Source: Nereocystis luetkeana
Taxonomy: Eukaryota > Sar > Phaeophyceae > Laminariales > Laminariaceae
Length of the DNA: 64,000 bases
Direction: 5' to 3'
Assembly (NCBI GenBank): GCA_031213475.1
Contig: JARUPZ010000010.1
Location: 1,245,001-1,309,000, forward strand
Shown here: positions 3,901-36,944 of the stretch, piece by piece
Layout of the letters: every line of letters begins with the position of its first letter
Position numbering within the stretch: the first letter of the stretch is position 1
Program-made: the position numbers and the translations under genes
Notes under the pieces: generated by a model
The model's input: only the letters and a program-made list of their open reading frames with translations
What the model was told of the DNA's origin: nothing
Database searches by the model: none

Positions 3901-4615
3901 AATCTCCCCCCAACTATCTTTGAAACGAGAGTGTGCTCCTATGTGAGTGGAAGCGAAACCCCATACATGTCGCTTCGTTCATGGCCCGCGTGTCCTTTAC
4001 CTAACATATCTTCCTCCTCGTCACCGTCTCCGTTTCCGCTCTAAACGAGGTCGACCGGCAACAACAGCGCCTCTCACCAGGGTGATGAGCAAAACGACGA
4101 TAAATATCTTGGCGACTGCTCGGTTTTATCTGGGTCGTCTGTCCCTTGTGCCAGTCCAAGAAACGGAGGGGCTGCGGCCAACTTGTTTCGATAAATGGAG
4201 CGATAGTCCGAATGTTGGACGTGTTAACGTGCAAATATTCCGCCCTTTCCGAACCGCTGCTGCTAATTGGTGTAGAGTGCCGGAAACTTACATTAAGAAA
4301 CATAATTCTAAGCCAGAGTGATATATATGCAGGAAGATACGTCATTCGGGACACCAGGAATAATAGTATATTTATTTATAGTTTGTGAAAACACACAGCC
4401 AGTTTTTTTTTTCAAGTTCAAGCCCGGGGAAACTCTTACTTCTCAATATGATATGCCTGGTGTGTATTTAAGGTTGTTTCTACTGCTTGCTGCAGCTGTG
4501 TTCGGATGGGAAATAATACTTACCGGCACATAAAAACTGGTATACGCTGTTGTTGGTAAAACAACCAACTTCCTTCTTGAGGACAGCACAGAATCACGCC
4601 TGTTTACGGAGGTCC

Positions 4616-4724
4616 TATTACGGGGGATCATAGTTAATAGGACCAAATACTGTTAGTAAAAATGGTTCAATATATAGGTTTTTATGAGTAACATGGGTCC
4701 TGTTAACTACGGTCCCCCGTAATA
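4616..4724 (+). mobile_element. MITE family 1, intact copy in pseudogene intron 1
   Basis: The element is bounded by TA dinucleotides with TIRs TTACGGGGGATCATAGTTAA and its inverse TTAACTACGGTCCCCCGTAA. The inverted match extends about 27 bp, to AGGACC at the inner edge. The interior is AT-rich with no ORF. The TA target and short length fit a Tc1/mariner-dependent (Stowaway-like) MITE. It lies between exon 1 (ends 4213) and exon 2 (starts 4764) of the esterase pseudogene. Confidence 0.9.
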
Positions 4725-5336
4725 GTTAACTAATACAACATGTCGTTCCGTCTCTGCAGGTAGGTGGTCATTTTTGGCGACTCCACCTCCGTTGCAGGCA
4801 GAAGGTTCAATGCTCCAACGAGCTCCGAATTCGACGACATCGGACCATTTTCTTGGACAAAGATCTTTCAAGCCCCCGATAACGATGTAAGAGATAAGGC
4901 GATGGGTTTGGAATTCCGTCTTCTCGTCGGCATCGGAACGGTCAAGCGGTTTGCATGTGCACGCATATATCTCGGGTGCTTTGCGTAGGCCCGAAAACAT
5001 ACCCAAATTAATTGGTGTTGAAACACAATAATGTAGCCGACGAAGCAGCGGAAAATATTGCAAGCTGGTTCCGGAAAACGGCATCTTTCAACCCTCCGAT
5101 AAAAAAACCATGATTACACTGAAAGTCGTGAAACAAAAAGAAAGAAGAAGAAGGAAAACCCATCGGTGAAGCTGGTCTAGGCATGCGCACTGCAGTGCGT
5201 TAGATGTGCGGATTGTTCGCCTTATTTAGGGAGGCCGTGTTCCATGCTAGGTACGTGTTGAAGCGGTCAACAGCAAACGCATCTGATTCATCCTCAGGTC
5301 ATCCTCCATCGTTGAATACGTTGAAAACTCGGACAC

Positions 5337-5445
5337 TATTACGGGAGACCATAGTTAATAGGACCTATGGTATACATAAAAACCTACATATTTAACCCTT
5401 TTTACTAACAATATTTGGTCCTATTAACTATGGTCCCCCGTAATA
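5337..5445 (-). mobile_element. MITE family 1, intact copy in pseudogene intron 2
   Basis: The ends are TATTACGGGAGACCATAG and CTATGGTCCCCCGTAATA, with TA at both borders. The interior is inverted relative to the copies at 4616 and 6378, so this is an independent insertion and not part of a tandem array. It lies in the intron after the FGDS exon. Confidence 0.9.
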
Positions 5446-6377
5446 GACGCGGTCGCGTTTGCGCCATGGTTTTTCCGAGTTGGAGACCGACTTCTTGTTT
5501 GCAGGTTAGTTCTTCACGGGCAAATGAAAACCCGCGGCAGTGGTATTTATTTGGGTGGTTTTTTTTTTCGTTCGCTGAGTTTCATTGACAGAGACGTCTT
5601 GTATTGGTCCCAAACTTGGCCACTGAGAGGAGGTTTCCGCTACTTAAAAAGAACAACCCTGCAAGGTTCGGGTTTAATTACACAAACAACGCCATCTCGC
5701 ACAAACCATTAAAGTCGAACTGGTTCGTCGTTCGCTAAAACCAGCCTGTGAAAGTAAATGGAATTCACTACAGTTGTCGGAACTATCGTATATAAAGCGC
5801 AGACCAAAGCACCGTAGACCAACGCCCCTGCGTCGTCCGACAACAACCAGTAGGCGTGTATCACACCCCCATCCCAATCGCACCAAAAACTGAAGAACAT
5901 CTCCCTGTTCAATCGACTCTACGTCACGATAGAGACCACGCAATACCTATATACGCAGCAGAGTCGTCCGAGTTTGCGCGAGAGCATTTGCTTGAATAAG
6001 TTTTAGAGACTACGGCGATATCGTAAGCTCGTTTCTCCCGCAAGTGATCGCTAGACCTGTAACCAATACAGTAGGGATGGGTTTCGGTTTCGTGACCTCT
6101 TCGATGCTTTGCGAGCGTTCGCCGATAAAGCTTGTGCTGCACCTTCCTATCGAGGTGGCATCAATACATCTGGAGGCTTTCTATCGAGTGACAGCTGCTG
6201 TCTAGTTTGTGTTTTGTTCAGATATCAGCAGTCCAAGTTCAGGGCGTACCTTCCAGCGCCTGGGTATCCCTCGAATGAAAGTGTTGGCCTTTCTGGCTGC
6301 GCGTGCCTTAGGGTATTCACTGGTTCTGCCCTCTGCCGACCGAAAATAATCTGTCAATATGCGCTGACGTTTTCGCC

Positions 6378-6486
6378 TATTACGGGGGACCATAGTTAAT
6401 AGGACCAAATATGGTTAGTAAAAACTGTTAAATATATGGGTTTTTATATATACCACAGGTCCTATTAACCATGGTCCCCCGTAATA
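6378..6486 (+). mobile_element. MITE family 1, intact copy in pseudogene intron 3
   Basis: The ends are TATTACGGGGGACCATAGTT and AACCATGGTCCCCCGTAATA, and the length is 109 bp as in the other intact copies. It begins 66 bases after relic exon 3 (ends 6312). Three of the first three introns of the pseudogene therefore carry this family. Confidence 0.9.
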
Positions 6487-7882
6487 GTTCGTGGTGGTAG
6501 TACCTACTTGCGTTGCCCTCAACCGATACGGATTCGTTTTTCTACTTTGGCCACATATACCGCCCATGCCTGGTACACATATCGATTTGTTCCTCGGTCT
6601 AGAAGCCTGGCTGCTACCCGGTAGTAGAAGTAGACTACCTAACCTTTGTGATGGCCTACCTGACGTTTCTCAAGTGGGCGAGGTGCCATATCTGTCGGTT
6701 GTCATGGGTGGCCTACTGGCCTACTATTGTACATACTGCACGGAAAATGAAAACCCTACAACTCTTGCACACGTCGCACAGGCCATGACACACATTATTA
6801 TTTCTTGGATCATGTAGTTCATCTCCTTCAGGATTTCCATTGGACGTGTCGAACCTAGGAAACATGTGCTAGATCGTACAGGTTTTAGCCGTCATACGCG
6901 ACAACATGGGCGAGATCATACATCATCAGGAATATATATATATATACATGTCTTGAACGATTTAGTTAATTAAGTGGCAATGATCTGTTGATGATCTGCC
7001 CGACGTGTGAACTCTTGTGAGTAATACTTGTGCGCTGAACCCAGCGAACGCCGCCATCGGACAGGATTTCACAAATACAAAATTTATAACGTTTTCAGTC
7101 CATATGTAGACAACACCATATATATACGGACGGTCGTTCACCAGTTCCGGGGGGCGTCCCGTCACAATCAGGAATGTTTTAAGGGCTGAAACGTACCCGC
7201 TCTACCCGTAGCATGTCTCTCCGCCTCAACCGGCCGGCGATTTCAGATCGCCTTATCCAACTTGCTGTTGGCGTGCATACGATGTTTACCGTGTGGTCGA
7301 ATTGTCAGGAATCAAACTTTGCGACGGATTCAGCCTCCGCGTCTGATGAGTTCCGCTCTCCCTAGACCTGTGCCGCCTACACACAGGGGTGAGTTGACAT
7401 TGGTGCAGGCACCACGGCAAAGCCCCGACGGTGAGGTTCGCGTTTGGTCTCTAAGCATATCTTGGCCCTGTAGGTGAAGATAATAAATACGTGAACCTAC
7501 AGTAGCTTAACATGTGTGGTATCAAGCGCGTAGAAATCTGAGTTTCTACTCCACCCATCCTCGGATTTGAGTCACAAGGGCATGGATTCTGCGGAGATGG
7601 CAAGGCTGATGCTGACTCCTCCCCCTGTTTTTGGCCCCCGTCCCCTGCTCTTGGCGTTATCTAACATATATTCTTCCTCTCCTCTCTGCCGGCGCCGAGC
7701 GAGCAGGTCGCCCGATATTTTCACGACGTCCTTATTGAAACCTGACGAAACTCTAGGTACGTCGCAGCAGATGCTAGCTATTACGGGAGGACCTAGGTGC
7801 GGGCCTATCGTTCGAGGGGTTCTTGTCTCCATAAACTCGACATCATTCGCGAAGCACGCGTGCTGTGGTTGAGAGAGCGTAC

Positions 7883-8112
7883 TGCGATAGAGGTGGCATT
7901 CCTAGGGCATTTTTGTTCCTGTCTGACGGAGTACCTTAAGGACACTGACAATACTACCCAATATTTCCAATCCCAGTTTCTATTTCAATATTTTTCGAAC
8001 AGCACGTACTATAGGCCTAGCTTGACCGTCCAGTTTTGTGCGTCGAAACCCGTTTTCGGGAGAGATGCAAAGTTAGGAGCTTTAGAACCAACAGGTGCTA
8101 CCTCTACCGTGA
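7883..8112 (+). mobile_element. Dispersed inverted-repeat element (family 2) in pseudogene intron
   Basis: The left end reads GCGATAGAGGTGGCATTCC and the right end GTGCTACCTCTACCGTGAG, which are inverse copies of the same TIR. The interior has the family landmark CGTTTTCGGGAGAGATGC followed by GGAGCTTTAGAACC. It lies between relic exons 5 (ends 7756) and 6 (starts 8802). Confidence 0.6.
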
Positions 8113-11100
8113 GGTAGTTGTGTTCAACCGAACTCTTGCTGGGGCTGATGGAGCGCCTTAACGCAGAAGTTTTCGGTATACCCTTGGTTAACACAAAAGA
8201 TAAGAGCTACTCTGTAGGGAAAAATAAAATATTTTGAGTGAAGCCTACGTACCGCAGCAAGCGAAGGTTTCGGGTAGGCGTGGAGGTTCTCACGTGATGA
8301 ACGCCTACAAATATAGTTGCTACGCCCATCACTCCACCAGTCAAAACCCGTGGTGTAGCAAATATCGCACTCAATGATACGCACAACCACACTGATAAGG
8401 TCTACAACGACCTCTACAGCTTTGACAAAAACCCATAAAGTGGATTTGCACCAACATGTGATATTTGCTAAGGTAAAAGCAGCCTCGTCAGGAAGTAGCA
8501 TTTAATCCCTATCTAGGCCATCTCTGTCGAAACATTGCACGCGCGTCAGCTTTAGTAGGCTGAGAAACGTTAGTCCAAAGCCGTCGATAGGCCGCCCGTG
8601 ACCTGAGCAAGGGTACCGCCCTGTGTGAGAGCGTCCGTCGGCGATACAGTACACAACGAAGAGTCATGGGTGGCGCAATCCACATGACTTTCGAATGTTG
8701 CTTGCCGTTCTTGCCCGCCGCGCGTAAAATGCTTATTGGGATGATTGCCTGCTCGGGCGTCCCTCTCCGCAACCTCGCCGTATCTCGTGCGCCTCGTTCA
8801 GGTTAGACGCGAATCATTGCGTTTGGCGGCAACGAACTCGGTACCGTGCTTTCCACGCGCATCCGCTGCACCACTGGAGGAGCTGGGTACGTGGACCCGG
8901 TTCCAGTTGAAACCTAGTTCGAAATGGTCGACGGGATCCCAGCTCTGTACGTTCGAGCCCTTGATCAGGGTGAGGGGGACTGCTCTCAAATAATAGTTTA
9001 TAACGTTCTACATGGCACGAGCCCTCCGCTGCAGGTGTTTCAGATGAATCTCTATTTTGAATTGACGCGCCGTGGAGCCACGCTGTCTAGAGAGCGGCTG
9101 CTCGGACAATATATGGCGGAGTTTACATGTCGAGTGGAGTTCATGTTATCGGGCAATGCTGCATGATATAGAACGCGTGGGTACATGATAGGACGACGCA
9201 AAGCTGGAAATATCGCATAAAGGTGCGAATATGTGGTTGATGCCAAGGGCACAGGTCTGAGTGTGTGTTGCAGAATAGGTAAACGAAAACTCACAGGGAA
9301 GCGCACGCCCTGGCTTTAGTCGGAAAGTGGACAAAATGGTGACCAGCGGTTTGTTTGACTGACCCATTGTAGCGATAGCCTTCCCATCTACACACCGTAG
9401 AAATATCGGCAAATATCCGTAGATATAGCCTGTGCAGTAGCACGTGGTAGCCTACGTTCGACCTATCTATCAGGCTTGGCGCAACGATGCTGAGCCCTCT
9501 ACCGACGGTAACTACCGACGGCTGCGACAAAAAGGGAAGCATATTTTTGTCCAAACTGTCACTGGGACTGATGGGTATTCTCAGGGGAAGAACCACCCTA
9601 GAACGTATTCCTTAGAGTTTGTTGGGTCGATATTTGTCTATACAGACCTCGCAGGGCATGGGATTGCTCATCGCAGTAAGCGTACGGCTATCTATGAAGC
9701 CGTGTTCGCGGGTGATATACCGCGGCGTTTCGGATGAGGAGTCTCATAAGATGCTTGGCGCACCATTTTCGCAGGCTCATGCTCATGACACGTTTTACTT
9801 TGGGAGCTATATAGTCAATGCATCACATGTCGAAACAACATGCGGGCTCAGCGCGAAGACCTATTGGGTAGGTATCTAAGCATGCATATATTGTAGCATT
9901 CACCAGGTATTCCTGAACAGTAGTCTAGGCCCTAATGCGCAGCCCTTACCGCATAGATTGGGTGTCTCTTCAATGGTGGCAAACCTTAACCGCTAGCTCT
10001 CGTCCGCCGGCCTACGCGAGTTAGCCTGTAAATGTTTATGTTATCTTGCTACATGGTCCAAGAACGCGTACCGAAAACTCTACAGGTTGTTTGTGCCTGT
10101 GCGAGGTACGGGGAAGACGCCTGTACCTGCTGTGTCTGTCTCCTGCTCGTAGGAATAAGGTCAATCATAACCTCCTTCCATCCGCTCCTATGTGTACGAA
10201 CATCCTCTGACGACCAACACAACCTCTCATCTCAATACCCTCCTGGGAATCACCGGCTCTTGACAGGAGGCGAGCACGAGGCTGGTCGAGCACGGCGTGA
10301 CTGGCGAAACCCTTTCTCTGTAACCTCGTGTTCCTTGAGAATTTGCCCGTGAGTGAGGTCGGTCTGCGCATCGCCTCGAGGTGTACCGCCGTGATGAAAA
10401 CATGAGCCCGGGTGCTGCGTGACCGTCGTCTTATGTACTCGGAGATCACGACGAAGCAAACACGTCCGCTGCTGCAGCGAGAACCCCTTCGGGGCAGGCA
10501 CAGGTTTCTTGTTACTCGCGAGGGTTTCTCCCAGTCGGGTGTACGATAAAAGTTGTTGCCCAAGGCACCACCAGCAGCCCCATGGTCGTGGTGCTCACCG
10601 CGAAACCAGGACAAAAAGCTTGAAAATGCGACTAGTAGTAGAGGTGAATAGTCTCTCCGTCGGGTGGCGCTAGACGGCTGACGAAGTATGCTCTCAAGTG
10701 ACCCGTCATATATATGGTCGACATGGTCTGTCCCTCTTGGTCAAGCTGTGTGTTAGGTGTAGAGCGCGTCAAGATTAGAAACCTGATCGATATTGAGCAA
10801 CCCCCCCCTACGTGGCATGTATATTGTTCGAATATTCTCGCCGTGCTTTGCGACCTCTCGAGGAGCGCATGCGCTTACGATCTGTATAGCCTCATTTCGG
10901 TTCAACTCTGCAAGGCAGCACTTGCTTGCACGAGGAACCGACGACATCATAACATGTTCGCTTGTTGTGTCATTTGTCCGCTACGTGAATTGTGCCCGGT
11001 TTGACAGGGTATTGCGGAAACCGGGTTGGCCGACCTTCTGGACGAGGTGTCCGGCGCCGTAAATACCGAGATTTTGAGCTCATGACCGAGGCCTTCCGTC

Positions 11101-13079
11101 GAGTAAAAATATGATTTGTCTTCAGCCTGAGTGCGATATGTCGCCACTATCTGGGAAGTACAGCAGCTTTGAGCCTGTTGTAAGGCTATCCAGCGGGGTG
11201 CCTACGTGAGCGGTATAATATTCAGACCAAGGGGGAGTGGAGGGTCGATCGCGTTGCCACTCACACTCTTTAAAGACCCCAGCCAGTATGTGCCGGCAAC
11301 AACGGTGATTGTCTGACGTGCAGAGAATTGCGATGGCGGCTTTGATAAGCGTCGTCCCGTCGGTGGAAACTAACGGGCTGGTGGTTAGCGACAAGCTGGA
11401 GCGATGAGTGTGGCGGGATGGACACGTTCTCTACCCAACAACCCAGTGAAGTACTTAGCCTTCCTTGGTTCCTTCGCTTTGAGACGGCAAGACTCAAAAC
11501 GAACACCTTCACGTAGGACACGCCCCCCACGCACCGTAGAAGAATGGTAAGAATTGGTGCATATTTGTAGCATACCACAAGACGTTCCAAGGTCGAGGCA
11601 TGCATAGGCAGACGTCCGAACCTTTCCGAACCCTGCCATCGCGAGGGTACACGAGCGCAATAGCGTCAATAGGGCCGTGTCCATCTCTCTTCGCTTTTCC
11701 GTCTTCTATCGTAAGGACGGCCTCAATATACGGTCGTTCTCAAACCTATTCTCCGTACGAATGAGTACCGTGGTTGTGACGGGCATCGAACGGGGAACGC
11801 GGAACAAACAAAAACGAATCACTTCCCCCAAATCAAGTGGCACCCGGGTTCGTGGAGGGCAGTCGGGCTGCTATCCTCCACATTGTTTTGGCTCATCGTT
11901 CTCTAAGGTCTGAAATTTGGCGACGGGTCGAGAAATCGTTCTATCTGTTTTATGTTTTCAGAGGTGGGCTACGGCACGGTTTACGTGTTTGCTCCGAACG
12001 TTTTCCTCCGGACGGAGCCTACTTAGCCGAGACGCTCTCGTAATCCCGCTGGGACCCCGATGTATAGCGACCAAGCACACGATAGCTTTGGGGCCTACCA
12101 CCTGTGTAGGAGCAGCGTGAGTGCCAGGAGTGCGGGAAGGCTTGGTGTCGCTCCCCGTGCCGAACGCCTCCTCGCATCGTGATTCGGACACCAGTCTGTA
12201 TCGTTCTCCAATTTATCCAATAGTGGCCGCCGCTGTAAAGCGTCTGCTTTGATCGCCAACTTTTCCCTCATTGACGCCCCAAAGGGGGTTAATCAACATA
12301 ATCTACATACTTCCAACGGATGTGTTTGACACAAAGGATTCTCGTTAGGTACCCACTGTAGCCCTGGGTATTCGACTTAACGAGTTACGTACGTACCGAG
12401 CTCCTGCGGTGATGAGCCCAAGAAATATAAAGGCACGTGCCGTCTTCTTACCGTGGTACGCCGCTTCAGTCTACCCTAACTCACAACTAGTTGTCCCTCG
12501 CTTACTGTTTTTGTTGGAAGTACGCATGCTACGAATTCCTTGGGCCCCCTCGCTTGAGGAACCAAAAAAGATGATACATCTCCCGACTCTCCACTCCGCG
12601 GGGAAAAAAAACATGAAATTCCGGTCCGATAAAGTGTAGATCGTCTTGCCATAATTCTGACCACAGTATTTCACATGTGCTGGGTAGCGTCTACTACAGC
12701 AGGGCTATAAAGTGAAACCCCTACGCTGGCTGGGCCGGAAGAAAAGTTGGTAAGGAACAACATACGGTGCAGAAAATATGCTTGTTTTATCCAGAGACGA
12801 GAGAGCGGCTACACTGTCATTCCCGCAACGACAAGCGAGATGCTTCAGAATTATGTGATGTATACACCAGCATGTACGCCCCTATGCAGACCCTTCCTGG
12901 CTTCTCGTGGCCCCTGTCATAGCTCAAAATATTTTCCCTTGCTCCTGCTGCCTCCTAGTCGTTACGCTTGTTCCCTCTGGTCCCTTTGCCCCTTCCCCCC
13001 CCTACCGTACCTGTCTTGCCTTTCTTTCCACAAGAAGAGTTAACTACGTTCTGACCACGTCCACGCGAGTCGAGTTTCG

Positions 13080-13100
13080 CCCCCCCCCCCCCCCCCCCCT
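13080..13100 (+). repeat. Poly-C tract
   Basis: A nearly pure run of about 20 C bases (positions 13081-13100) lies in the long intron before pseudogene exon 9. A similar C-rich tract occurs at 18185-18209, and a G run at 21769-21782. These tracts could form G-quadruplex or i-motif structures. I see no linked gene feature. Confidence 0.9.
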
Positions 13101-16100
13101 CCCGCCAAAATAGGCGCTCTTGATAGTTGGTGCCACTTGAAGAAAATATAAACTACATACGTATACTCGGACCCTAGCCCCTACTCCCAGTAGAATTTGG
13201 CGTTAACCACGATATTACCCGAGCGATAGGTTTTGGCATGCCTCAAATTCGGGGATGGTAGCACACGACTATCCCGTCTAGTGTGTACCAATATCATCGA
13301 ACGCCTGCAGTCCACCTTCCATCGTTCAGAAGGACGTAGCACCCGCGATCGGGGTCACCAGTCGTAATTGTACTGGAAGTCTCACGAGTCCGGCGCGGTA
13401 GGGTGCGTGCGTGTGTATGGCCTAGCACTGGCGCGCTTTGGTATTGAAGCTACTGGCTTCATTAAACATCCCAAGTATTATTCTGCAATATAACCAGTGC
13501 AGGTCTACGTGGACTGTGTTCGCGTGAAGCTATTATTTTGCTCAAGAGACCACAGGATAGATACTCTATGGCGTTCCATGTGCTTTCTGCTGCTGGCCTA
13601 CGATTGTCACCACTTATTAGTTCGCTTGCGCATTTTTCCTCCCACTTTCCAGGCGATCGTCGACAAGCCTGAACTCCAGCGGAGTATTAGCTTCACTGCG
13701 GGCTCAGCATCGACCTCGAGTGAGATTAATCTGGTCTTCGGCTTTGCGCTGGACACCGACGCGGAGATCATGGGGACCCAGGTCGGCTTAATTCTGGAAG
13801 GGCCTTTTTTTGTTTCATCAGTACTCTCTATCCCACGCGGGCGACACATCAGGTCGTCGGGTAATACCCACGGATTTCCCCGGACTAAAACGCCTTCTCG
13901 GAGGACCCAACGTGTCATCGAACGGGTGTTACATCCCACGGGGATACACTACACTCTGGCGGGCACTCGCGCTGAACTGTGGCACGTCTTGCTCTGACTG
14001 TCGTCACATCGAATCGATACCTTGTGAACACGCGGAGTCGACGGGTAACATGCATGCTGGGTACATGATATCGTCAATCAAGAATGCGAATCGCGGTAAT
14101 AGGCACCCCCGAACGAATCCCTGAATGAGGTGGTGGTAATATGCAGACAGAGGCGTCCTGCGATAGATGTGTACGTCACCGTATTTCGGCCATTTTTGTT
14201 TCACGTGGCTGCTCGCTTGAAGGGCTCTACGCTTCCTTTTAGTGAGTCACCTAAACCTGAGTTTCGAGTCACGGATCCCCCACAAATGAGGTCGACGTCT
14301 AAGTAGGTGCATCGCGAGTGGTAGTGTAGCACGACTCTTACATGTGAATGCCCAGATGTACGGTACTGGGCTGAGAACCACAAGGTCAGCCAGATGTATG
14401 GTGTCGGCCCAAACAGTGCTTACCGTTGTCCTAGTAAACGTCTGTGCTCAACCCTACGTTTCAATGTATACCTAGGTCATAGAAGTTCAGTGTGCTTGCG
14501 CTTGAATGCTTCTCCAGAGGTCAGGCGTGTCGGTGTCTTACGAACGCGCTGCCCCCGTAGCAGTAGAAGAGATGTTTCCTGAACTAAGCATCTTCCCAAA
14601 TCAGAACTGTACACAGGTGCACCTCCATCATGGCATACGTCTGCAGCCAAGTGTGTCGTAGAACACACACTGGTCACACAAATACACTGGACAGTTAGAT
14701 ATTGAGTGGATGAGACCCTGTCAACCAGATGAGGTTCGACTTTCAACCGAGACTTCACTACCGTACACATGCCGGCTGCCACGACATCCTGAACACGCTT
14801 CACACCGCTCTGAGCTTTTGAACCAGGGGTTATTCAATCGTGGAAACTTCCCGCTCATCCATGCTATGTGCAACAGCGCACTATCACCACGTGTTTCATC
14901 CCATCGATCGTTTAAGGCTGATCGCGGTGGCGAATGCCAGGAGGAGTACGCCATTAGTGCCGACGCCTCTTCGCCGTGCCAGGACTGTTTTCAGGGCAAC
15001 CCATCCACCACTATCTGCCAGGACCCGGGAGAATATATATTCCGGGATAGCCATCACCGTCTCCGCGGATTTCCACGAGGGTAACGCCAAAGATGTCAAA
15101 CCGTGCGTTCAGGACTCTCCGAACTACGATCGCGCTTACGTGGCGGTGTTCTGCCCTGAGAAAGGGTGACCAGCATCGCCCACCGACCCACGCCTGAGGT
15201 ACAGGGGGGATATTCAAAGCCCGATGCGTTTGACCGACACGAGTCTCCTAGGCTTATACAAATTGCACGATAGACTTGCACGATACCTCGTACCAGGTAA
15301 GCGACGTGGTTTTTAATGGTATGCGCATGTGATGCTCCATGGATGGGAGTACATATCTAGATGCACGAAAACCCTGTGTCGGCTCACCCGGTTTGGTGGC
15401 GTGGGGTGTCGGAGGGCTCAATGGTTGAAGAGCGTGAAGGGACCACAGGTGCCCCCCGTCCGTCCACCCACCATTGCATGGCTCCACTGACGAAGCTTAG
15501 TGCAACAGAGAGTCGGGTTCGGGTCAAAATCTCGTTGGCTGGCCTACTGACAACAGCTAGGTACACCAATTATCCTTTTAAAATGAGCCTGGTCGGATTT
15601 AAATGGAAGCGGGGGCTGTGTTGATGCTTTCAAACGGAAGCGGTGGTTTTGTGTATAATAAGTTCGTCGACGAAGTAACGCGTCCTACAAACGAAGTAGT
15701 GAACAGTACAAGGTTTTTCCCTAGAGATATTAACGCGTGGTCTGTATCGAACACTGGGACATAGGTAAGGGAAAAGCTTGAGATATGACGCCCCTGGATG
15801 CAGTCTATTCTAGAAACAAATCGCTTGCAACGACGCACCCCCACGTCGGGTGCGAGTAAGCACGACGTGCCTCCTGCGACCGAGGGCAGGCGTGAGGAAA
15901 TTGCCGGTTGGTCAGCCAAGCCAGCAAGTGGTGCCCTTTTTCTGCCGTCGCACTGTATTGTTTTCTTTTTTATCGAACGACGTACAATACAGTGAGAGAA
16001 GACATCGAAATTGAGGTGCAACACGGGAGACTCTGAAGAAATTCGATTTGAAGCGCAAGTACTGGAATTATTGATGAGCTGTCGACTCGGCCTCGGGTTG

Positions 16101-16233
16101 TCTGGGGTTTTAGGGGATGGGTGTTCCCAGACAAAGAACCGAATATCGGCGATCGTGACTAATCCCGCACGTTCGTTCCTTCGGCGCACCTAGGGAAAAA
16201 GCTGAATACGTAACTACCCCCACCTCAACGTGT

Positions 16234-16345
16234 TGTTACGGGGGATCATAGCAAATAATACCCAATAATGTTAGTAATAAAAACAAAATAGATAAGTGTT
16301 TGTGTTTACCGTAGGTCCTGTTTAATATGCCCCCCCCCGTGATAT
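16234..16345 (+). mobile_element. MITE family 1, degenerate copy
   Basis: The left end, TTACGGGGGATCATAGCAAA, is well preserved. The right end has decayed to a C run followed by GTGATA. The interior keeps the motif AATGTTAGTAATAAAAAC and TACCGTAGGTCCTG, as in the intact copies. It is clearly older than the three intronic pseudogene copies. Confidence 0.7.
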
Positions 16346-24700: not shown

Positions 24701-27700
24701 CTAGCTTGTCGTTGCGGGAGAGGTTGTTCAGGATCTGTATAGCATAGATGTAACTCAGGAAGCCTCTCCCTTACGTGTTCAGCGTGCGCCACACAATACA
24801 GATCAGGGAGCCATCTGCCTTGAGTGATCTAGATCATGACGTGCGAGCCGATCGCCTGTTCGATATTAGACTGTTTGTATGTGCCATCCGAGGAGCAATC
24901 CCGATGGATAGGAACATCATGAACACAAGTCGCCACCGTTGGGGTGCCCGGGTCAAACCACGAAAACCTTCGGCCACAACGTGGCACTTCTAACATAGCA
25001 CGATTATCTGCATATCTCGTACAAAGACCTGCAAGCTTGGATGGGCCCGATACTTTTTATGAGCAGGAGCAAAACGACACCGTTCAGCCCATCATCGAAC
25101 GAGCTATTCACCGCCACCATTTAAAAGCAAACCGACCCTCGTTTGTCTGGCCAAGTAGATGGGGCTTAGAACCTGGCTTTCCGCCAGACTGGAAGCACGG
25201 CTATACGTCTCGGAAGGGGCACCGCGACCGCAAACAAGATGGCGCTGAGGCATGCCAAGACAAGGGCAGCATTGGTTCGCCACGACAAGGCTTCCCAACT
25301 AAAGACCAACCCAAGATCGTCTGGTTATATGATTATACTCGCTACTTCTCCGTGTCGTTGCTCGTGAGGTAAAGTACGCAGCGTGAGGGGTTCTTCGACT
25401 TAAAGCCACCATTAATGTTTTGAGGCTCAAGACGTGAAGGCTCCATACCTCACCCGAAAACTGACTTTAGCATATATCAAATGGGAGCGCAATGCATAAC
25501 GTCATGGCCCAAGCATACAACGAAACAATTGAAACAAGATTGGAATTCGGAAGATTTTTGGGTTAAGGGGCCCTTCCGTCCAGAAAACATGTCCACGAAA
25601 GCAAATACCGCTGCTACGGCGGGGACGGGGTATTCTGCCAACAGTTTCGCTACCACGTTTATGCCATTCGGGATAGTGACTCTGTACCTCACTCAAAATT
25701 CGACGTACATATATTTGGCTGCTGCAGAGTAGGAAGTGGTGCGGTGATGGTTTATATTACGGGGGGCAAACGGTTACAGACTTATTAATGACTCGCAAGA
25801 AACATAGCCTTGACCCAACCTTGTGGTTCCCACCGCGGGATAATCTAGGCCTATCAAGCGATCTTCCAGAAACGAGTTCCTGGCGTCGGAATCAGTCAAG
25901 GCTGACTCTAGACGATGTGTAGACCCGCCGAACTGGCAAACGTTATAGACTGTAGGAGTTCCCATACCGTGCCAAGTATCTGATTGCAGCACCAGCAACT
26001 GCTTCATTGAGGGATGCCACCATTGGTGTTTCCGAAGGACAAAATACCAGGCTAAGACCTTTCCGACGCGGGCGGAGCATGTTCTAAGTAATACTTCTAA
26101 CGACCAGCTCTATTTGTGATGCATACCTGGTCCTCCTGCCGTGCCGGTGGGCGCCGGCCAGCCATTTTTGCTCTATGTCGGCATCCGGCAAACCTCCACA
26201 CACTGCCCTCTAGGTTTATCCCACGTGTGACAGGCAATGTAACTGGCGCTCTAATGGGCCCCCGGCACTATTAACAGTCAGCGGGCACTACAGACGGACC
26301 ACTACAGTATTTGTAAACCTCGGATAAGACTGACCCCCTGTTCTCCTGTGTCAGTTTTGTCGGTAGTGAGACTGCCGATATCCCCGCTACCGCGTGTGTA
26401 GGACACCCGGGCGGGGAGTCTCCGGACCGCACCCAATATGGGATCTGATCATACTATGCTGTTGACGCATGAGTCTCAGACATGCTCATACATGTGCATA
26501 CCTCAAACCCAAGAGGCCCAGCACCTCAGATCAGCAACGAAATAAGGTAGACATTAACCCTCGAGTACCTCCGACCACCTGCAACCATACGATTTACTAT
26601 ACACGTGACCCCCCGCCCATTCCCCCCCCGCGAAGGCTTGGCCCACGAGCGGGTTCCGACTTGGCGCCCTGCTCTACCCGTGCGCCTACTCACCCCGGTG
26701 GGGAGTTGTTCCCCTTCGCCGGTGTACCCCAAGCAGGATTCGCGAGAGCGAAAAGCGTCAGTGGCGGTGCCTGAACTCGTCGCGAAATTCAGCTCCTGTC
26801 CACGGTGTGACGCACATCCGCAAACAAATAGAGGCGTGGTTACGAAGTAGCAGCAAACGTGGTTGGAGGCTTATGCCCCGAGGGGCTCTACCCAAATGAA
26901 TAACATAGTTAGAGGAATCGTTAGGCTAGCACGGATACTTAATCCCAGGGTCAATGTAGGTCACACGAACCAAGAATTGAATGTTGTTGCACGTGTAGCA
27001 CAGGTAACGATCTAAATATTCCAGTCTCGTAGTCTGCTCTTATTGAAAGATATATACGCAGGTAGCTGTCTAACTCAGGAAACATGTCCGAGACCATGCT
27101 CGTTATACCGCTCATACCCGATAACATGCGCTAGATAATACAAATCTCAAACATGTGTTTCCTGAAATACCCAGCTCGTGAAGCAGAAATCGAATTTTGC
27201 TCGAGGTATTTCACCTTGGACACACGTTAAGGTAGAGGTCCACTTTTTGTCTTCGGAGGCTCCTCACTTGGAGAGATCTACACCATATCCCAATGACACC
27301 CATGATGACGTGATTTCGACAAACTCAAACGAGCGTTACGCCCAATGGACAATCCCATGGCCCACATACAGGTGTGAAGATGCTGATATCGCAAAACAAT
27401 AAGCATCCCTACGATTGTCTGGGTGAAGGAGCCCCGTCGTTTAGATTTATGTTTCGCCTAAAATTTTGTTACCCCTTTCGGGGCACGTGGCCTTGCATGA
27501 TACACAGCGACTCCAGAGATATTGGTGTAGTTTGAGAGTTGTGAAGTCTGGTTGAAGGATGCATGTTTTGCCTACCCCTGCCGCCCTTACCATAGACCAC
27601 CTCAAGACGAGCACTCACGGATACAGGAGTTGCGAAGGCAGCCTCCGACGGTCTGCGCGAGGTTTTGAGGTACCGGCTCTAAGGCTTGTCTCTTGTGGCA

Positions 27701-30700
27701 TGCATGATGACGTGTTGGTGGTGGGCAAAAATGGTTTGTAGAGCTCACTGCTATCCTGGTGCTCCGACTGAGCTGTGCTTTTGGGTTGGTTTTCCAACCA
27801 CAGTACTGCTCGCTGCATACGTGCCGCTGAAAAGGGAAGTGTAGATGAGCAATGCCTTATTGGGGTGGTGCCATATTTTGTCCTGAAAATATACTGTCGA
27901 AGGCGCATGACGGTACTGGCAGTTATGTATATCACAAGGCGGCGAGCAAGAGCTAGAAATAATAGGCTATCGATTTTGCTGTCGGTAGCACACTAGCCAG
28001 TCATTGAATGCTCGTAACTCGTAGGGCACGGCCGCATGACGTCCTGGTATGGAGTGGTATGCGAGTCGTGCTATCCGGTCAGTTTGTTGCCCAGGATACG
28101 TGCGGATTGTACGTACTGTGCTTTATTACAGCTCGAGACGGTAATAAAAGTGACACCAGTACTCACGCCTTTCACTCTGAGCACGTATCATGCGCAGGGT
28201 CACGCCAATTTTGTAGACCCGATATCGTAAACCTGCGGCGCAGTGGTTTCATTGGTTCGTACGAACGTCGAAATATAGATCGACCAAGCAAGGATGGCCG
28301 GATCAGTAACATTGTTTTGTGTTGTCCTGTCCCTTGGTAGGTTAGAGTTCTGAAAACTAGCCATACGATACGCCTGCGTCACCCACATTGCGTCACACAT
28401 TACCTATACACCACACCACGACTCTTTTCGCCTGCTCCTTACCACGAGCACCGATGCTAATGAGCAATACCACGAGGCTTGGGTCCCCAGCTCAACATCT
28501 ACAGAGCGGAGTTCAAATCGGACCTCACAGAACCAGCCCAACCGCAGTCCAAGTTACTTGGCCTTTTACTGGTGTCACACGCCGGCGGCAAGCCAACTAG
28601 CATCAAGGAGGGACCCTTGGGTAGCATACTCACCTCTGGCACATTAAGCCAGCCTGGCCACGCCTTCCCGTTTGTGACATATCCTGGAGACGGGAGGTAC
28701 GCCTTGAACATGGCCTGCCGAGAGCAAATAATAGTGGGGGTGGGGGTGGAAGCGGTGCCGTGACGTCACTGCTACCCATAAACCGCAATCGGCGACTCCC
28801 ACAAGTTTTGAGAGCGTCAAATATTTAGACATCGATTTCTACAACAGGGATCGCACTTTTTATGCCCAGGGAGTAGTAGTGCTATACTAGGTATACGAAA
28901 GGGGGGTGCTACCTCAGTTTCAGCGGGCTCCTTGCATGAGGACCTCCATATATCACCCATAAACTGGCGGTCCTCGAGCGAAAAAGAGGCAATGGCCTTA
29001 CAAGCAGCTTGAGTATCAGGAAAACGAAACGAAAATGAGAAACTACGTTGGTGAATAGCTCCTCCTACGTTGATGGTGAGGATGCCCTGTGGGCCGGCGA
29101 AAGTTTGGCCTGCAGGATATGGTAGCCCCGTTACAGTACTATGACTGCACAAACGGTTATTCGATGACCGAGTTCCAAATATTTTCAGAGTCAACATACC
29201 ATTGTATTCGTTGAATACCGATGTGAAGGTTTCAAGACCGTTCGACAGATGCCTAGACTCCGCGTGATTGGGTATCGGGCATAGGTCTCAACACCTATCG
29301 AAGTCGGCTGTTGGTTGATCAGAAGTCGACTGTCGGCTTATCAACCTGAAGAGCCCCAGAGACATTGGGTGACAATCCTGGCGTAGGATGTGCCTGGCGT
29401 GGGTACGAATCTACTGGGGAGCCGAGCTACGGCAAAGGAGAAAGAGGGGGCTCACGCGCTTCTGGCTCGGGTTTAGCCCACCATCGCGTGTGTTGCCACC
29501 GCAAAACGAAAGTACCGACCGTAGACGGGTAATATACTCGTAGTCGCTCGAACTGGGCTGTTGGGGGGGGGTACCTTTCGAAATACGAAACGCCTCAATC
29601 CAGTGATGTACAGAGCCCATCCCCCGAGTGGCTTAAACGTGGCAGTGAAACGGTTGGCGTCACACCCCCGCCACCGTAGAATCAGTCCTCGCATGAGGGC
29701 CCCCTCCTAGGTCGCTTTAGAACACTGCCCCTGAAGTACCCCCTAGTCTTGGCCTTCGTTCCGACCGTAACCTCCGGTCCCCATCATTGTCAAGAGGGTC
29801 AAATGAATACTACGGTAGCGAAAACCAAGGCCGGAAAAACGTGTTTCGAGGCTACGGCTCTTTCTCTTTCTGTGGCAACAGCTATGGTCAAAACAGCAGG
29901 AGGGGGCTGCATACGTGTACACGCGCCATGACATGACAGGGGTGCTCCGTAACACAATTTGTTTTGTGCCGAATGTGTTGCGACTGACAGGGCCCTCCTC
30001 AACTGACGACGGTCTCTACGATAGAGGTCACACGTTTTGCCGATATAGTTGGGTCTGACCGGGCGCCTGATTCCAACATATGTTAGGGATCAAGTAATGT
30101 TTTACATTGTATTTCCTGATTCACTTTGGACTTGGGACTGACGGTCAGTGAACACATTTTTAGCTTTTCCCTGAAATCGTCTTTCGGGGGTGAGGTATGG
30201 AGCTCCGTAAGGTCGACTGAGGACCCTCAGAACGTTCAGGTGGTATCTCTAACGTCGCACGACGCTGACGAACTACTGTGTGGTATCGCTGCAATGCCAG
30301 TTGAGATTGAACACCGTTTGCGTTGGTGGTGGAGGAGGTATGTTACCGCCGCGGACACAATTTAGGGGCCGACCTTTCCGATGAGTTTTGTGGGGGGGCC
30401 GTCGCGCACTACTTAGCTCCTCACCGTCAAAGGCCTAGGGCCCGCAAAGGCCTTCCTCCGTATCCCCTAGCGTATTCCCTGTCTTTAGTTAACCCCTCTT
30501 GTAGCACAGGCAGTCCGTCGAATGAGGGCGGATGGAGCGAAAGCCGACTTCAAGAGAGGAGGCCTGCTACGGTGTATATAGAGAATACGCCCTGTTTCCA
30601 TCGCCCATGTCATGAGGAGCTCTGCGTAAGCTTCATCGTATATTGTTGAGATGGACGGGTGTTGTACAAATCGCCCATCTGTCGTTTTCAGGGAGTTGGG

Positions 30701-33700
30701 CATTGTCCTCGCTGTGCTACACGGCTGATGGTGCATGGGTCTGACAAACGTTCTAGACTAATTCTCGCGGTAGGGGTGGTACTTTTCTTGTCTCAATGTT
30801 GTCTGGCCGATTGGGCGCCCCAAGCGAGCAACCATGAGCATACCAGTTAGTCTGATACTTGGGCGGACAGCACATTGTTGGTTAGGGTTTTCTAGCGCCA
30901 AGAAATGTTGGTCGGGAGCTCGCCCAACAAACGTATTGGAAGTCGTCTTAGTTGAAGTGAGCTATTTTGAGCCTCCTTGTGGAATGAACGCAGCAAAGGA
31001 ATGACCATACCCTTTCGTGACATTTCTCGACCGGAGGGCTCGGTAAAGCCAGTCGCAAAAACGAGCCGGGCTGCAGCATTCCCTTCTGTCGTGGCATGCT
31101 TGGGCCGGTGCCGCAGCAGGCAGTTCTGCCGTAAGCGGTGTGCAAAGTAACATCGACGAGTTCCGTGATATGATAGACGTGCAACTGACAGTACTGTTTG
31201 TTTTCGGATAATCCGGAGTGTTTCTGAATGATGGGGTTTCTGAGCCAATAAACTGCCTAAAAAACGTTCTTGCGTTTGATTCATGTTTCGATATGGACCT
31301 CGTAGGTTGTGCAACTTCTGCCGGTCTGGCTAAGCGTATCATTTCTTGATGCCGTTTGGGGGGGGCTTGCTACTACGAGGGGCAATAGTAAATAGGACTT
31401 ATGGTACACACAAAAAACTATCAGGTATGTATTTACCTATTTTTACTAACAGTATTCGGTCCTATTTACTATGGTCCCCCGTAAAAGTGACTCACACTAC
31501 TGTAACAGTAGCAGGACAACCTCAACCGAAGAGGGGCATCAAATGTTAGGGGCATATCTCTATCGTGTAAGGCGTGCACCCCTGCGAACTCGGGAACAAG
31601 GGATTACTCGCACATGTTAACATGCTCGGCACTTGCACATGGGAGGCGTGGTACGATAGGGGTCGATATATTGTATGGATGACCTGGTTCATTAACTCAA
31701 CATCGTCGCAACGATTCTGAATGATTTTGCGATGTTATACACAGGAGTTTAGTATTTTAAACCTACGTAGGCCGTGAGATTGTTTATCGACAAGTGCATC
31801 TTGCGTATGTTCAAAAATCAGTTTTTTTGGGTGACGTAGTAATGCCATGTCTATAGCATAGTGTGAAGCTGCTCAAGTTAGGAACCTCGACAATATTTTG
31901 ATTGGGGCACCTACCTTAAGCTTGTGTCTTGGACGTGTTCGCTCGTACCTGTAGGACATCTCGTGATTGGAATAATATATATACCCGCTACATGTGTTTG
32001 CCGTTTGGGAACACTTGGTGTGAACAAAGACGATGTTGAAATATGTGGGAAAGATCCGTGTCATAAACATCGCATTCCGAGTCACCCCACGGTAGGGGTT
32101 GCACGTTTCGGGCCAAAGTTCCTGACTAACTGCGTTCCTTAAGTGAGGAACTACCAGTTAGGATAAAAAAAAGTCTCGCGTACATTCGTTTTAGGACTAG
32201 CGCATACCAGTAGTACCGGTCGGGTGGCACGAACGAATTTCTTCCAGGTATTGTATCGGGTGATATATTGAGCTCCTACTGTAAGGGGCTCAGAAACTTC
32301 TGGTGCACCCCTTGTTGTTGTTGTTGTTGTTGTTGCTGTTCTCACATTAACTCACAATATAATGCAGTCCGTGGTCGCCGTGGGATGGCCCTTCGACTGG
32401 AACAGAACACACGAACTACGTCGTGCAGACCGCAAAAAACTAAGGATCGTTTTTGCTTTTCCAAAACGTATTCGTCGCCAAGATCAAGGCTGGCGTGGGT
32501 GGCGGGATCACCTTAGGATCCCTTGAATTTGGCCGCTGCCTGGAGGCACTCGGCCGGCCGGGCGACTTCCCTATTTCTTTGTAGACTACAGAAACGGAAG
32601 CTTCCGGATTCGTGGTAGGCACCCGGCCATCTGGGGTGAAAATTTGTTACGCCCTTCCGGAACAAAAACAGAGCACTCTGTTCCTATTCCGTTAGGTACT
32701 TTCAGAGCCACTCGACGAGGCTCCCTAAATCGTATGGCGATAATGATGGCATCATGCTTCTTCAGTGATCCGAGCAGGGGGGGGGTTTCATACATTCATG
32801 TCTAATGTGCGGGCGTTGCTGGGTGTCAATGATAATACGCTGCTTGCAACCCCCGTCAAGTTGTGCTCACATCGCTGTCGGGCTCTTCGAACAATTTCCG
32901 GAATGGAAACTTTCCGATATCCTCGAAGTCGAAGCTCGCCGGGGCGTCAAACCTCCTTCCTGCGTCGGAGGTGGAGTCCCCGAACACGACCATCTGAGGG
33001 GAGGAACACGGGCGTGCGCACGTGCGAGTTCCGAGTCATTAGAACCACATTCGAAACTGGTGCTCCAGTCGGGGGGGATGCCCTATTATTCGTACTGCCG
33101 AGTTTACGCCACTCGGGCGACCCGTGCCGTGTATCTCACTCACTACCGAACGTGAATCTCGTTCGGTTGGCGCAAGAGAAGCAAACAATGTCATGGGCGT
33201 GCTAATTACGAGATGGACGGACGAAATATGATGAGCGCTTGCTACGCGAGGAGTAATGTACGGTAGTCTCTCGGCGGAGTGGCTCTGAGCCGCCGGGAAA
33301 TAATAGAAAAGCTACAGGCGACTGCCTTACACCGTGACCCCGTATTCGTGTGCTGGCGGTCTGTTTCCATTTTCCACCGCACTCCGTACATTCTCGAAAA
33401 CACACAGAGATGGGTTCTTCATCAATCAGGTGTTCCTTGACCTATAAAACTAACTCTATGCGCCATCCAACATATTTGGATGAGGAAACAACGTACCATG
33501 TACGTGCCGCCCAATGGACCATCCCTGTATATAGGTACAGATCACAAAAGCCAAAAGGATACTACTTACTGGATTTATCACGGTATCGGAGGGCAATACC
33601 ATGTTCCACCAGGAGCGCAGCATCCCACACGAAACATGACCGATTCAAACGGAAGTTTGCTCGCGCAACCAGACCACCTTTTGTATCAGATAATCTGCTA

Positions 33701-36527
33701 TTAAAAGTCCACAAACCAACATATTCGTTGAACTATCCTATTACTTGGGTATACCAGTAGATACTCACCTGAGGAGTGCAGCCGATCGGAATATAGTGAT
33801 AAGGAAACGGTATCCCCCTGGGTCATTGGGCGGGCCGCTCCCGTCGTGTCAGACAGGGTTGGGCCAGATCGCACCCAAACGTGGCTTCAGCTACAGCTTT
33901 ATTACCTACGCACCCCATGTTTCCCAGATCGAGCTAGAATATGACGCATTGGACACCAAACCAGAGGAACATCACGGTATTGTATTATCTCCAATGATAC
34001 AGGGGAAATAGCAGCGCTGGCCGTGAAGACAGACATGTGTGGAAAGAGAGAGCTCCGGGTGTGGCCACATGCGAGAGCGAAATACGATATAGTATCCATA
34101 TTCGGTGCGTGTTAGCGCTTCGATAACGTCCGGACAAGACGGCCGCCCACCCCATTCGCCCCAGCCCACGGCAGCTAAATCGGCACGGTTCTGCGCAATG
34201 TCACGACACGGATGGCGCCTCACTTTTCCAAGCTAGTCACGTGAAGATCCCGATGTCTCACAGGAAATACTACCCTTGAAGAAGTTCGGTTCGCGCAACT
34301 TGGTATTCGTTTACAGGCACTAGGGTTATACTGTGCACACATACTAGCCAAAATACCGGACGGACCGGTTTACCCATAGATGCCGGTCGCCCCGGTGGTT
34401 CAAGTGGTTAACCTCGAATTCTACTTGTTTGAGTCCGGGGTTCGAGCCCCAGGTGGGTCGGACTTTGCCTTCATTTGCAAAAATAAAAAAGGATTCAATT
34501 GTTGAGAGCGCCTTGCGGCGTGGGTAGGCACAATTCGATGCGAGTCGACAAAGGAAGAAAAGGCTGAAATCTTCTCGCGATAAAAAATGAAGGCACGTAC
34601 CGTAGCGGGAAGGGGGGAGAAGAGCCTGCTATGTGACCCCGGATCTGAGTGACGAGTTGGAAGGAGAGAGAGAAGACGATGTGCGAAGACAATAAATGGG
34701 ACGAGAAGAAAAAAAAACAAAAATAGCTGCTCACTTAAGGACTTCCACCGCGGGCCGGGAAGAAAGTGTTTCAAAAACGGTAAACCCTTACGGTGTGATG
34801 GGTCGTTTGTTTCCGGGTACCAGGTGGGAGTTTGGACGGAAAGTTGCCGGCGTAGTCAGCTGCAGGGTCGTACTCAGTAGAGAAGGGTTTATTGGAGATA
34901 GGGCGACGTTGGTCTCCAGCGGGGTCACGCAGTTTTCGCGCCGTATCCTCAACGAGGTTTCTGGTCAATGAACACTCTACACCGGCGTGCACGTCACGGA
35001 GTAACCGCGTGTCCAACCAGGCATGGGCCCTGGTCCGTTTCGTTGTCTAAACAGTACCAGTGTTCATCTACAGGTAATAACCTGCCTGCTGCCTTAGGAA
35101 AAAGCGATATACGTTATTCCAGATTGAAGGCGGTGGTAGTGGTCTGGAGAAGGGACAGGGTTGGGTTCTTGTGGGGTAGGCAGTCCCTGCTCCACACTCT
35201 CGAAGAAAATTCAGCAGAACAACACCCTTGCCCGGCGCGCTCAATCAAGACGAACAAAGAGCAATATGCGAGTAGGCATGGCCTCTGGTCCCAGCGATCA
35301 CAAATCAGTGCTCGTCTACTTGCGGCATCTCTCGGCTGGTCGCGGAAATACCAGAGGTCCAATATATATTGACAGAGGAACGTCTCGAACGATAGCAGGC
35401 CATAGGACACCGGACGCAAATCAAAATGTGCGTCGCTAACGAAGCATATACGTGAAGAGAGTAGAGCGAGGGGAGATAACGGGCGAGCGGGGTATGCAGG
35501 AGATGGGCACCGTGAACGTATTTGTCTCCGCCACTGGCGGCATGGCCTCTGATATACAGAAATCCCCAAACATGCTCCTTACGAGGCGGAGTATCATTTG
35601 GTGTTTGGTGCTAGTGAAGCCAGATCGCGTCTAAGACAAGTTTTCGACAGGGCGCCTTCAGCGGGGATCTCCGGGGAGCCCTCCCGGCGAGATTTCAGGA
35701 TATACACGCCTGATGACAACCACAACATGTATACCACAGTTACGTCTATGAAATGTTCGTCCTTTTCCCAACTTTTATTTTGTATGTCCTCGTACGAGCA
35801 TTATATCACGGCGGGCAAGAGACTCTGTGATGCGGAGGGGGGGGCGGGGGCGGTTGCGTTAGGTCCATCCCTCTGAGGAAGAGCAGATGGTTGATATCCG
35901 GACGCACCAGATAACGGAGCACACAAGTTGAAATATGAACTGATTAAGAACCCAAGCAGTGCTGTTCCCTCAAACGCCAGAACTCAGGTAAAGGGCACCG
36001 CAGAAGGGGGGGGGTAAAGAAGACGGCAAATCTAAGAAACAAAACCCAGACGACGTTGGCACAGCAGCACACAGGTAGGTAAGGCCTTGCTCCTACCATC
36101 TGCCATTATGCGGCGTGGTGTTTTCATTCCCTCTGAATGGAGAGGATCTACCATACCAGTACAGCTTTCCTCCGACTGGAGAGGATCTACCATACCAATA
36201 CGGCAAGAAGTATGCTGCGTACTGCTGTAAATAAAAAATCAACCATACATGTGTATTCTCACAGCAGCATGTGGTGTGTTTACTATGAGTAGTATATACA
36301 TACGAATGCTTTAGGGCATCCTGCTACACTTACGCACTGCCCAGCCCTTATGACACCACGATGACTATACTGCTGTACAGTGCTGCTAGTACATGTAACA
36401 GTACTACAGTACTGGTTTTGCTACTACTACTCCTACTCCTACTATTAATACTACTACTACTACTCCTACTATTAATAATACTACTACTACTATACTACTA
36501 CTACTACTACTACTCCTACTCCTACTC

Positions 36528-36575
<48 letters not shown>

Positions 36576-36582
36576 GTACTAG

Positions 36583-36632
<50 letters not shown>

Positions 36633-36684
36633 TTAATACTACTACCCCTCCTCCTCCTCCTACTACTACTAGTACTACTACTAG

Positions 36685-36716
<32 letters not shown>

Positions 36717-36944
36717 ATACTACTACTACTACTGCGGTACCACTCGTACGGTCAACCCTATGACAAGAAATGAATTCCGTACGTGAAATAGTACTACTGT
36801 TGTAGCTGCGCGACAAACCTTGGGATTCCTTCGCCATTTCTTGTACTGCGGTGGCCGCTGGGCCTTCGAGTCGTCACCAGAGCCGGATGCGATGCCAACC
36901 AAAATGCCAGCAGTAGCGGCCAGCAGCAACGCCCTTCTCTCCAT
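18759..36944 (-). CDS. Secreted GDSL/SGNH-hydrolase (esterase/lipase-like), 10 exons
   Basis: Exons on the minus strand are 36944-36819, 32993-32871, 28714-28630, 25949-25834, 24476-24413, 23714-23548, 22552-22451, 21472-21341, 20298-20185 and 19010-18759 (TAG stop). All introns are GT-AG and the phases agree, giving about 426 aa. Exon 1 starts at MERRALLLAATAGILVGIAS, a signal peptide, so the product is probably secreted. Exon 2 carries block I (VVFGDSTSDAGRR, Ser nucleophile). Exon 3 has TNGKAWPGWLNVPE, exon 4 has NVCQFGGST (block II Gly), exon 6 has HVINIGGND (block III Asn) and exon 10 has FWDSLHLTTHIH (block V Asp and His). Exon 10 also has a Cys-rich stretch, C-x3-C-x2-C-x6-C-x2-C-x9-C, probably disulfide-bonded. 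The family hydrolyses ester bonds in lipids or acetylated sugars; the substrate here is unknown. The least certain junction is exon 3/4: a stronger donor lies 4 nt earlier (after 28634) but does not keep the frame. All key residues are present, so it is probably functional. Confidence 0.85.
21769..21782 (+). repeat. Poly-G tract in esterase intron 8/7 region
   Basis: A run of about 14 G bases lies between exons 8 (starts 21472) and 7 (ends 22451) of the minus-strand esterase gene, so the pre-mRNA would carry poly-C. No function is evident. Confidence 0.85.
25425..25640 (+). mobile_element. Family 2 element, partial, in esterase intron 4
   Basis: The sequence GGCTCCATACCTCACCCGAA and the following AACTGACTTT are nearly identical to 62898-62930. 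Further in, TTTTTGGGTTAAGGGGCCC followed by CCAGAAAAC matches the inner part of the 62.8-kb and 0.7-kb copies. The ends are not clear. It lies between esterase exons 4 (25834) and 5 (24476). Confidence 0.5.
30016..30255 (+). mobile_element. Family 2 element in esterase intron 2
   Basis: The left end is CTACGATAGAGGTCACACG. The distal part has CGTCTTTCGGGGGTGAGGTA followed by TGGAGCTCCGTAAGG. Both are family landmarks in the expected order and at about 240-bp spacing. The right TIR is badly worn (GGTGGTATCTCTAACG). Confidence 0.55.
31195..31290 (-). mobile_element. Family 2 element, fragment, in esterase intron 2
   Basis: The plus strand reads TTTCTGAATGATGGGGTTTC, which matches the internal landmark TTTTCTGAATGATTGGGC at 682-700. 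Only this inner part is recognisable and no ends are preserved. Confidence 0.4.
31371..31486 (-). mobile_element. MITE family 1 in esterase intron 2
   Basis: The right end, CTATGGTCCCCCGTAA, is intact and the inner TIR edge CGGTCCTATTTA is present. The left end, TACTACGAGGGGCAATAGTA, is worn. The interior has TATTTTTACTAACAGTATTC, the inverse of the internal motif in the plus-oriented copies. Confidence 0.8.
32312..32340 (+). repeat. (GTT)n microsatellite
   Basis: Eight or nine GTT units end in GCTGTT. They lie within the second half of a region resembling family 2 (AGCTCCTACTGTAAGGGGCT upstream), just 3' of esterase exon 2 on the minus strand, in intron 2. Confidence 0.9.
34386..34490 (+). 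mobile_element. tRNA-derived SINE-like sequence in esterase intron 1
   Basis: An A-box-like TGGTTCAAGTGGTTAAC (34396 on) is followed 40 bases later by a good B box, GGTTCGAGCCCC (about 34440-34450). This is the spacing of a Ser/Leu-type tRNA with an internal RNA polymerase III promoter. The flanks do not form a proper seven-pair acceptor stem, and the 3' side runs into CATTTGCAAAAATAAAAAAG. A SINE head or tRNA pseudogene therefore fits better than a working tRNA. Confidence 0.5.
36420..36733 (+). repeat. (CTA)n compound microsatellite, 314 bp, in esterase intron 1
   Basis: Almost pure CTA repeats are interspersed with CTC and ATA units. The repeat starts 86 bases downstream of the exon 1 donor in transcript direction. 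On the sense strand it is (TAG)n, so each unit offers both GT and AG dinucleotides. The long valine- or tyrosine-rich ORFs across it are artefacts of the repeat. Confidence 0.95.

Follow-up and report, generated by a model that had tools for sequence, protein, structure and literature searches.

The window analysed here, a stretch of 64,000 nucleotides (nt) from a 12.4-Mb contig named C10 (C10:1245001-1309000; assembly size, 465 Mb), carries two ten-exon genes that face each other tail to tail, an intact-looking one on the minus strand (copy H) and a decayed one on the plus strand (copy G). Our results indicate that both are, very probably, neighbouring members of a clustered family of secreted-looking GDSL (SGNH) esterases following an ordinary course of birth and death, in which G would belong with copy F, a further member of the family on the same strand. 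According to this proposal, G and F would have arisen by head-to-tail duplication, G would have stayed under protein constraint before losing its function and decaying, and the tail-to-tail junction between G and H would be best read as a flip in the orientation of the array. The first-pass annotation of this DNA had described a tail-to-tail pair of GDSL esterase genes, one intact and one dead, and had regarded them either as an old inverted duplication or as two copies brought together, with asymmetric decay. The order, orientation and ten-exon layout given there for both chains were borne out by the splice model of H and the exon alignments of G, as were the esterase type, the distinction between an open frame in H and the stops and frameshifts in G, and the old divergence followed by asymmetric decay. 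The idea that G and H are duplicates of each other is not supported, since they are two of eleven copies and both the blastn comparisons and the phylogenetic tree join G with F; of the two scenarios proposed, copies brought together lies nearer to our results than an inverted duplication.

Evolution by birth and death is a general concept for clustered multigene families. When H was used as a query against its own genome, exons were matched only at ~950-1378 kb of C10 and on seven small contigs, and copy J as a query led to the same places; the candidates scored amounted to 100 of 105 in the H search and 104 of 123 in the J search, and a few diverged copies may have been missed. For the exon-by-exon mapping of the copies, 190 kb of surrounding sequence were taken. 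The cluster comprises eleven copies, A to K, lying in both orientations over ~950-1379 kb of C10 (~430 kb), ten of them multi-exon and one, B, a fragment of the last exon (Table 1). Nine or ten of the ten exons, some of them partial, were located in every multi-exon copy other than D; in D, exons 6-8 were not found between exons 5 and 9 (C10:1152033-1154256), and this is likely a further broken copy. D and E form a second tail-to-tail junction, and C and D meet head to head. The cluster resembles birth-and-death families in that its copies point both ways, intact-looking genes stand next to broken ones and a single genomic place is occupied; no difference from such families was seen. Seven contigs 15-21 kb long repeat copy A (C10:948721-951975), from which they do not differ in the 3255 bases compared; a recent amplification of this copy was considered and set aside, assembly leftovers being the likelier origin of seven short contigs with such identity.

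The ten exons of H measure, in order, 126, 123, 81, 102, 64, 167, 102, 132, 114 and 252 nt. All nine introns show GT-AG borders, and the spliced length of 1263 nt corresponds to an open frame of 420 codons plus a stop. Third-position guanine-plus-cytosine (GC) content reached 0.69 along the exon chain against 0.50 in the introns of H, as coding sequence would show. Eight exon pairs of matched length had been listed in the first-pass annotation; the 81 nt of minus-strand exon 3 hold good, and the plus-strand lengths must be taken with boundaries that are only approximate. The 129/114 mismatch of exon 9 is explained by a change in H itself, because the other nine multi-exon copies all have a longer exon here. 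Intron 1 of H contains, close to exon 1, a CTA repeat of ~105 units (window 36421-36733).

Membership of the GDSL/SGNH esterases is supported by matches to the Pfam family Lipase_GDSL (PF00657) in all eight near-complete copies scanned (B, D and G left out), at E values up to 0.1, the chain of copy J scoring 29.1 bits and thus over the curated cutoff of 23.6. In common with PF00657, a family of the SGNH clan, the copies carry the motifs VFGDS, G-x-N and D-x-x-H, which we take to be blocks I, III and V. The GDS of block I is invariant in nine of nine aligned copies (G and B, whose exon is absent, left out), the block III asparagine is retained in seven of eight (B, D and G left out), and both the aspartate and histidine of block V and eight cysteines of exon 10 are invariant in nine of nine (B and G left out). 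The exception in block III is copy K, which reads GSIE at C10:1369680-1369847, with isoleucine replacing the asparagine, and which may be catalytically changed. Unlike PF00657, the family has an eight-cysteine last exon and a domain split over many short exons. The NCBIfam models PlaC (E 1.3e-7) and PlaA (E 7e-7), bacterial GDSL lysophospholipase/acyltransferase types, also matched H, and the best-matching stretches include block V; the scores were far under the equivalog cutoffs (30.8 against 700 and 28.7 against 450), which places H outside those subfamilies. Similarity of an eight-copy profile to solved SGNH/GDSL esterases was weak (best E 2.2e-5), the structures matched being thermolabile hemolysin 6jl1, SGNH hydrolase 8h09, esterase 5xtu and ChoE 6uqv. 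A profile of the 82 positions of exon 10 matched ChoE (E 2.9e-4) between positions 20 and 60, which take in the later part of the cysteine-rich stretch and block V; the best stretches were short, and the first three exon 10 cysteines fell outside the matches. The hydrophobic N terminus of the encoded protein resembles, as judged by eye only, a signal peptide. We infer that H and most sibling copies would be active ester hydrolases, perhaps exported.

Seven single open frames holding exons had no match in Pfam, none of 20 other open frames of the window scored above a Pfam cutoff, and PF00657 run against the own genome returned no match, probably on account of the short exons. Neither H by itself nor the eight-copy alignment uncovered relatives in prokaryote genomes and viral contigs, searched by pattern and tblastn. 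Among the titles and abstract openings retrieved from the literature, none concerned a GDSL esterase cluster of this kind; in the excerpted text of PMC8472486, a single lipolytic enzyme of GDSL-like type is named among the genes up-regulated in Saccharina japonica.

That G is a decayed copy of the same gene was apparent from the DNA alignment of each H exon with the G region in which its counterpart was expected: exons 2-7, 9 and 10, eight of the ten, outscored all 200 randomised regions made per exon by first-order resampling, which supports the matching exon series described in the first-pass annotation. Direct alignment was weak for exon 1, whose score was reached by three of 200 randomised regions, and not significant for exon 8, where 145 of 200 reached it. 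With neighbouring paralogues as queries, G exon 1 was recovered at E 7.5e-6, which supports the start at 4085, and a piece of G exon 8 at E 0.008. Read in the frame of H, G is interrupted by TAG stops (exons 4 and 6), and its frame changes in several exons, exon 10 at the catalytic block V included; the number of insertions and deletions varies with the alignment, chiefly in exons 7 and 8, and hence no total is given. The GDS of block I is still present in exon 2, and two of the eight invariant cysteines are missing.

The differences between G and H keep the mark of past protein constraint. Over nine exons (exon 8 left out), 31% of the first codon positions differ, 22% of the second and 46% of the third. 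This pattern was compared with simulations that took the H coding sequence as ancestor, with 50 runs per setting and a coarse time grid picked from six runs each. A G without constraint throughout reached the observed second-to-third ratio in none of 50 runs at each omega of 0.1, 0.2 and 0.35, by which a copy dead on arrival was rejected, and constraint during 25% or 50% of the time likewise gave 0 of 50 each. With 75% of constrained time the ratio was reached in 48, 0 and 0 of 50 runs at omega 0.1, 0.2 and 0.35, and with 90% in 50, 43 and 2 of 50, the last a poor fit. The mean second-position difference was 0.249 between G and the other copies; the others differ from one another by 0.192, and by 0.173 when only the codons covered by G are counted. 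At second positions on which the remaining copies are unanimous, G has changed in 22 of 158, compared with 1.2 to 7.7% in the nine other multi-exon copies. Together, the low second-to-third ratio and this excess of second-position change indicate that G spent much of its existence as a constrained gene and later lost that constraint.

As regards kinship, the best supported candidate for the closest relative of G, though not a proven one, is its same-strand neighbour F and not the facing H. The exon sequence of G detectable by blastn amounted to 862 nt with F, 617 with E, 520 with I, 492 with J, 454 with A, 354 with D, 267 with K, 175 with C and only 83 with H, the lowest of the nine. A second tree, to which G exons 1 and 8 had been added, joined G with F (support 87/84), and since F lies on the strand of G and ends ~13 kb upstream of it, a head-to-tail duplication would be the simple reading. 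Several points weigh against this placement and against the wider interpretation. The blastn totals favour conserved, unbroken stretches, and in protein identity F and I tie as closest to G (59%), ahead of H and J (54%) and of C, D and K (51%), so that H is not the lowest. In the first tree, built without G exons 1 and 8, a G+I grouping was 2.0 log-likelihood units (lnL) better than the free search and G+F 0.12 lnL worse. In the second, the G row had been assembled manually out of pieces read in different frames, lost stretches being given as X, a G+H clade was not rejected by the approximately unbiased (AU) test (p 0.114), and none of the inner branches attained the 95/80 mark. Moreover, splice sites were checked in H only, the other copies being mapped by exon matches, and Lipase_GDSL matched H at E 0.0011 and 19.6 bits, under the curated cutoff.

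Some of these points would favour a true inverted duplicate pair of G and H within the cluster, whose kinship was blurred by the later decay of G, a possibility that we regard as rather unlikely. The two copies are adjacent and inverted, the first tree did not reject their grouping either (4.1 lnL worse than the free search, AU p 0.188), and in the second tree the terminal branch of G exceeds all others (0.71, the median being 0.32), which makes its placement uncertain. However, the G+H clade of the second tree costs 14.1 lnL relative to the best tree, H shares less than a tenth of the blastn-detectable exon that F shares with G, and G exons 1 and 8 were recognised via F, with a direct comparison to H that was weak or not significant. 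The introns argue in the same direction, as matches between those of G and H found with blastn are confined to copies of a ~112-bp repeat, near-palindromic, with ~30-bp inverted ends and resembling a miniature inverted-repeat transposable element, which occurs six times in the window. The earlier statement that the introns are unrelated thus holds outside this repeat, copies of which are common to both genes. With the window copies as blastn queries, the repeat was also detected in seven of the nine multi-exon gene regions other than G, H included, C and F being the two without it.

The gap of ~3.6 kb reported between the two 3' ends is correct (15169 to 18759). Transcription across it may yield antisense RNA, as the first-pass annotation suggested, and this convergent layout is what would speak for G as a regulatory pseudogene or antisense source whose convergent RNA damps H or its siblings. 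This function is very improbable, given that G and H retain little long DNA identity and their RNAs would pair poorly, and that no Rfam match at gathering score was present in the whole window, in which no transfer RNA gene was found either. Least likely of all is a living G with altered exon structure and a shorter protein, for which the absence of in-frame stops from the alignments of exons 1, 2, 5 and 9 (exon 5 with a one-base insertion) could be invoked, but which is opposed by the stops in exons 4 and 6, the frame change in exon 10, which falls within block V, the two lost cysteines and the lost second-position constraint.

Regarding the genome setting, the GC content of the window (~49%), its long introns and the long CTA repeat are all in line with what has been published on the Saccharina japonica genome, for which the excerpted description gives 48.72% GC, a mean intron of 1203 bp and ACT/AGT as second in one repeat class (PMC6507550); this resemblance would point to a brown alga. 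Other repeats were observed in the window. At 41678-41985, a 77-bp unit is present four times with 100% matching; duplicated stretches lie close by (41322-41565 and 43566-43808). A long imperfect palindrome, self-complementary to 68%, spans 46793-47235. A dispersed repeat found in both orientations at 658-971, 25440-25589 and 61854-63088 is separate from the gene duplication; a larger inverted duplication across the window was discarded, given that its inverted matches (~0.7-1.0 kb with 61.9-63.1 kb) involve this repeat, also found near 25.4 kb.

Table 1. Copies of the esterase family on C10 and features of the window (window positions unless C10 is indicated; boundaries of the broken exons of G are approximate).
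Feature	Position	Strand	Basis or remark
Copy A	C10 960-950 kb	-	
Copy B	C10 967 kb	-	last exon only, in-frame stop
Copy C	C10 1142-1130 kb	-	
Copy D	C10 1143-1161 kb	+	exons 6-8 not found
Copy E	C10 1176-1166 kb	-	
Copy F	C10 1225-1236 kb	+	
Copy I	C10 1326-1311 kb	-	
Copy J	C10 1349-1335 kb	-	
Copy K	C10 1379-1363 kb	-	
Copy G, decayed ten-exon copy of the same gene as H	4085..15169	+	exon alignments, stops, insertions and deletions; exons 1 and 8 via copy F
G remnants 1-5	~4085-4213, 4766-4888, 6229-6313, 7309-7395, 7690-7756	+	
G remnants 6-10	~8802-8970, 10250-10350, 11008-11082, 13653-13781, 14917-15169	+	
Gap between 3' ends of G and H, ~3.6 kb, convergent	15170..18758	.	exon coordinates
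Copy H, ten-exon GDSL/SGNH hydrolase gene	18759..36944	-	splice model and profile matches
H exons 1-5	36944-36819, 32993-32871, 28714-28634, 26795-26694, 24476-24413	-	
H exons 6-10	23714-23548, 22552-22451, 21472-21341, 20298-20185, 19010-18759	-	
H exon 2, block I VFGDS with putative nucleophile serine	32871..32993	-	splice model; copy alignment
H exon 6, block III GGND	23548..23714	-	splice model; copy alignment
H exon 10, cysteine-rich stretch, then block V FWDSLH	18759..19010	-	splice model; copy alignment
~112-bp repeat, all six window copies	167-280, 4614-4727, 5334-5449, 6374-6489, 16236-16336, 31370-31490		
~112-bp repeat, G intron 1	4614..4727	+	ends ~35 bp before G exon 2
~112-bp repeat, G intron 2	5334..5449	-	
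~112-bp repeat, G intron 3	6374..6489	+	
~112-bp repeat, H intron 2	31370..31490	-	

Going further than the birth-and-death interpretation, one could tentatively propose, as a rather long shot, that the copies are lineage-specific, cysteine-rich, exported GDSL esterases, probably of a brown alga, confined to the one ~430-kb cluster, with an old burst of diversification and ongoing turnover, and that copies losing a catalytic residue, such as K, perhaps act in binding or as decoys in cell-wall remodelling or defence. The pair of G and H taken alone is ordinary. It illustrates how facing genes that look like a neat pair within a single window can be only part of a more extensive array, G would represent a local case of a duplicate held under selection and then lost, and the cluster as a whole would be useful for the annotation of GDSL esterases in this lineage.

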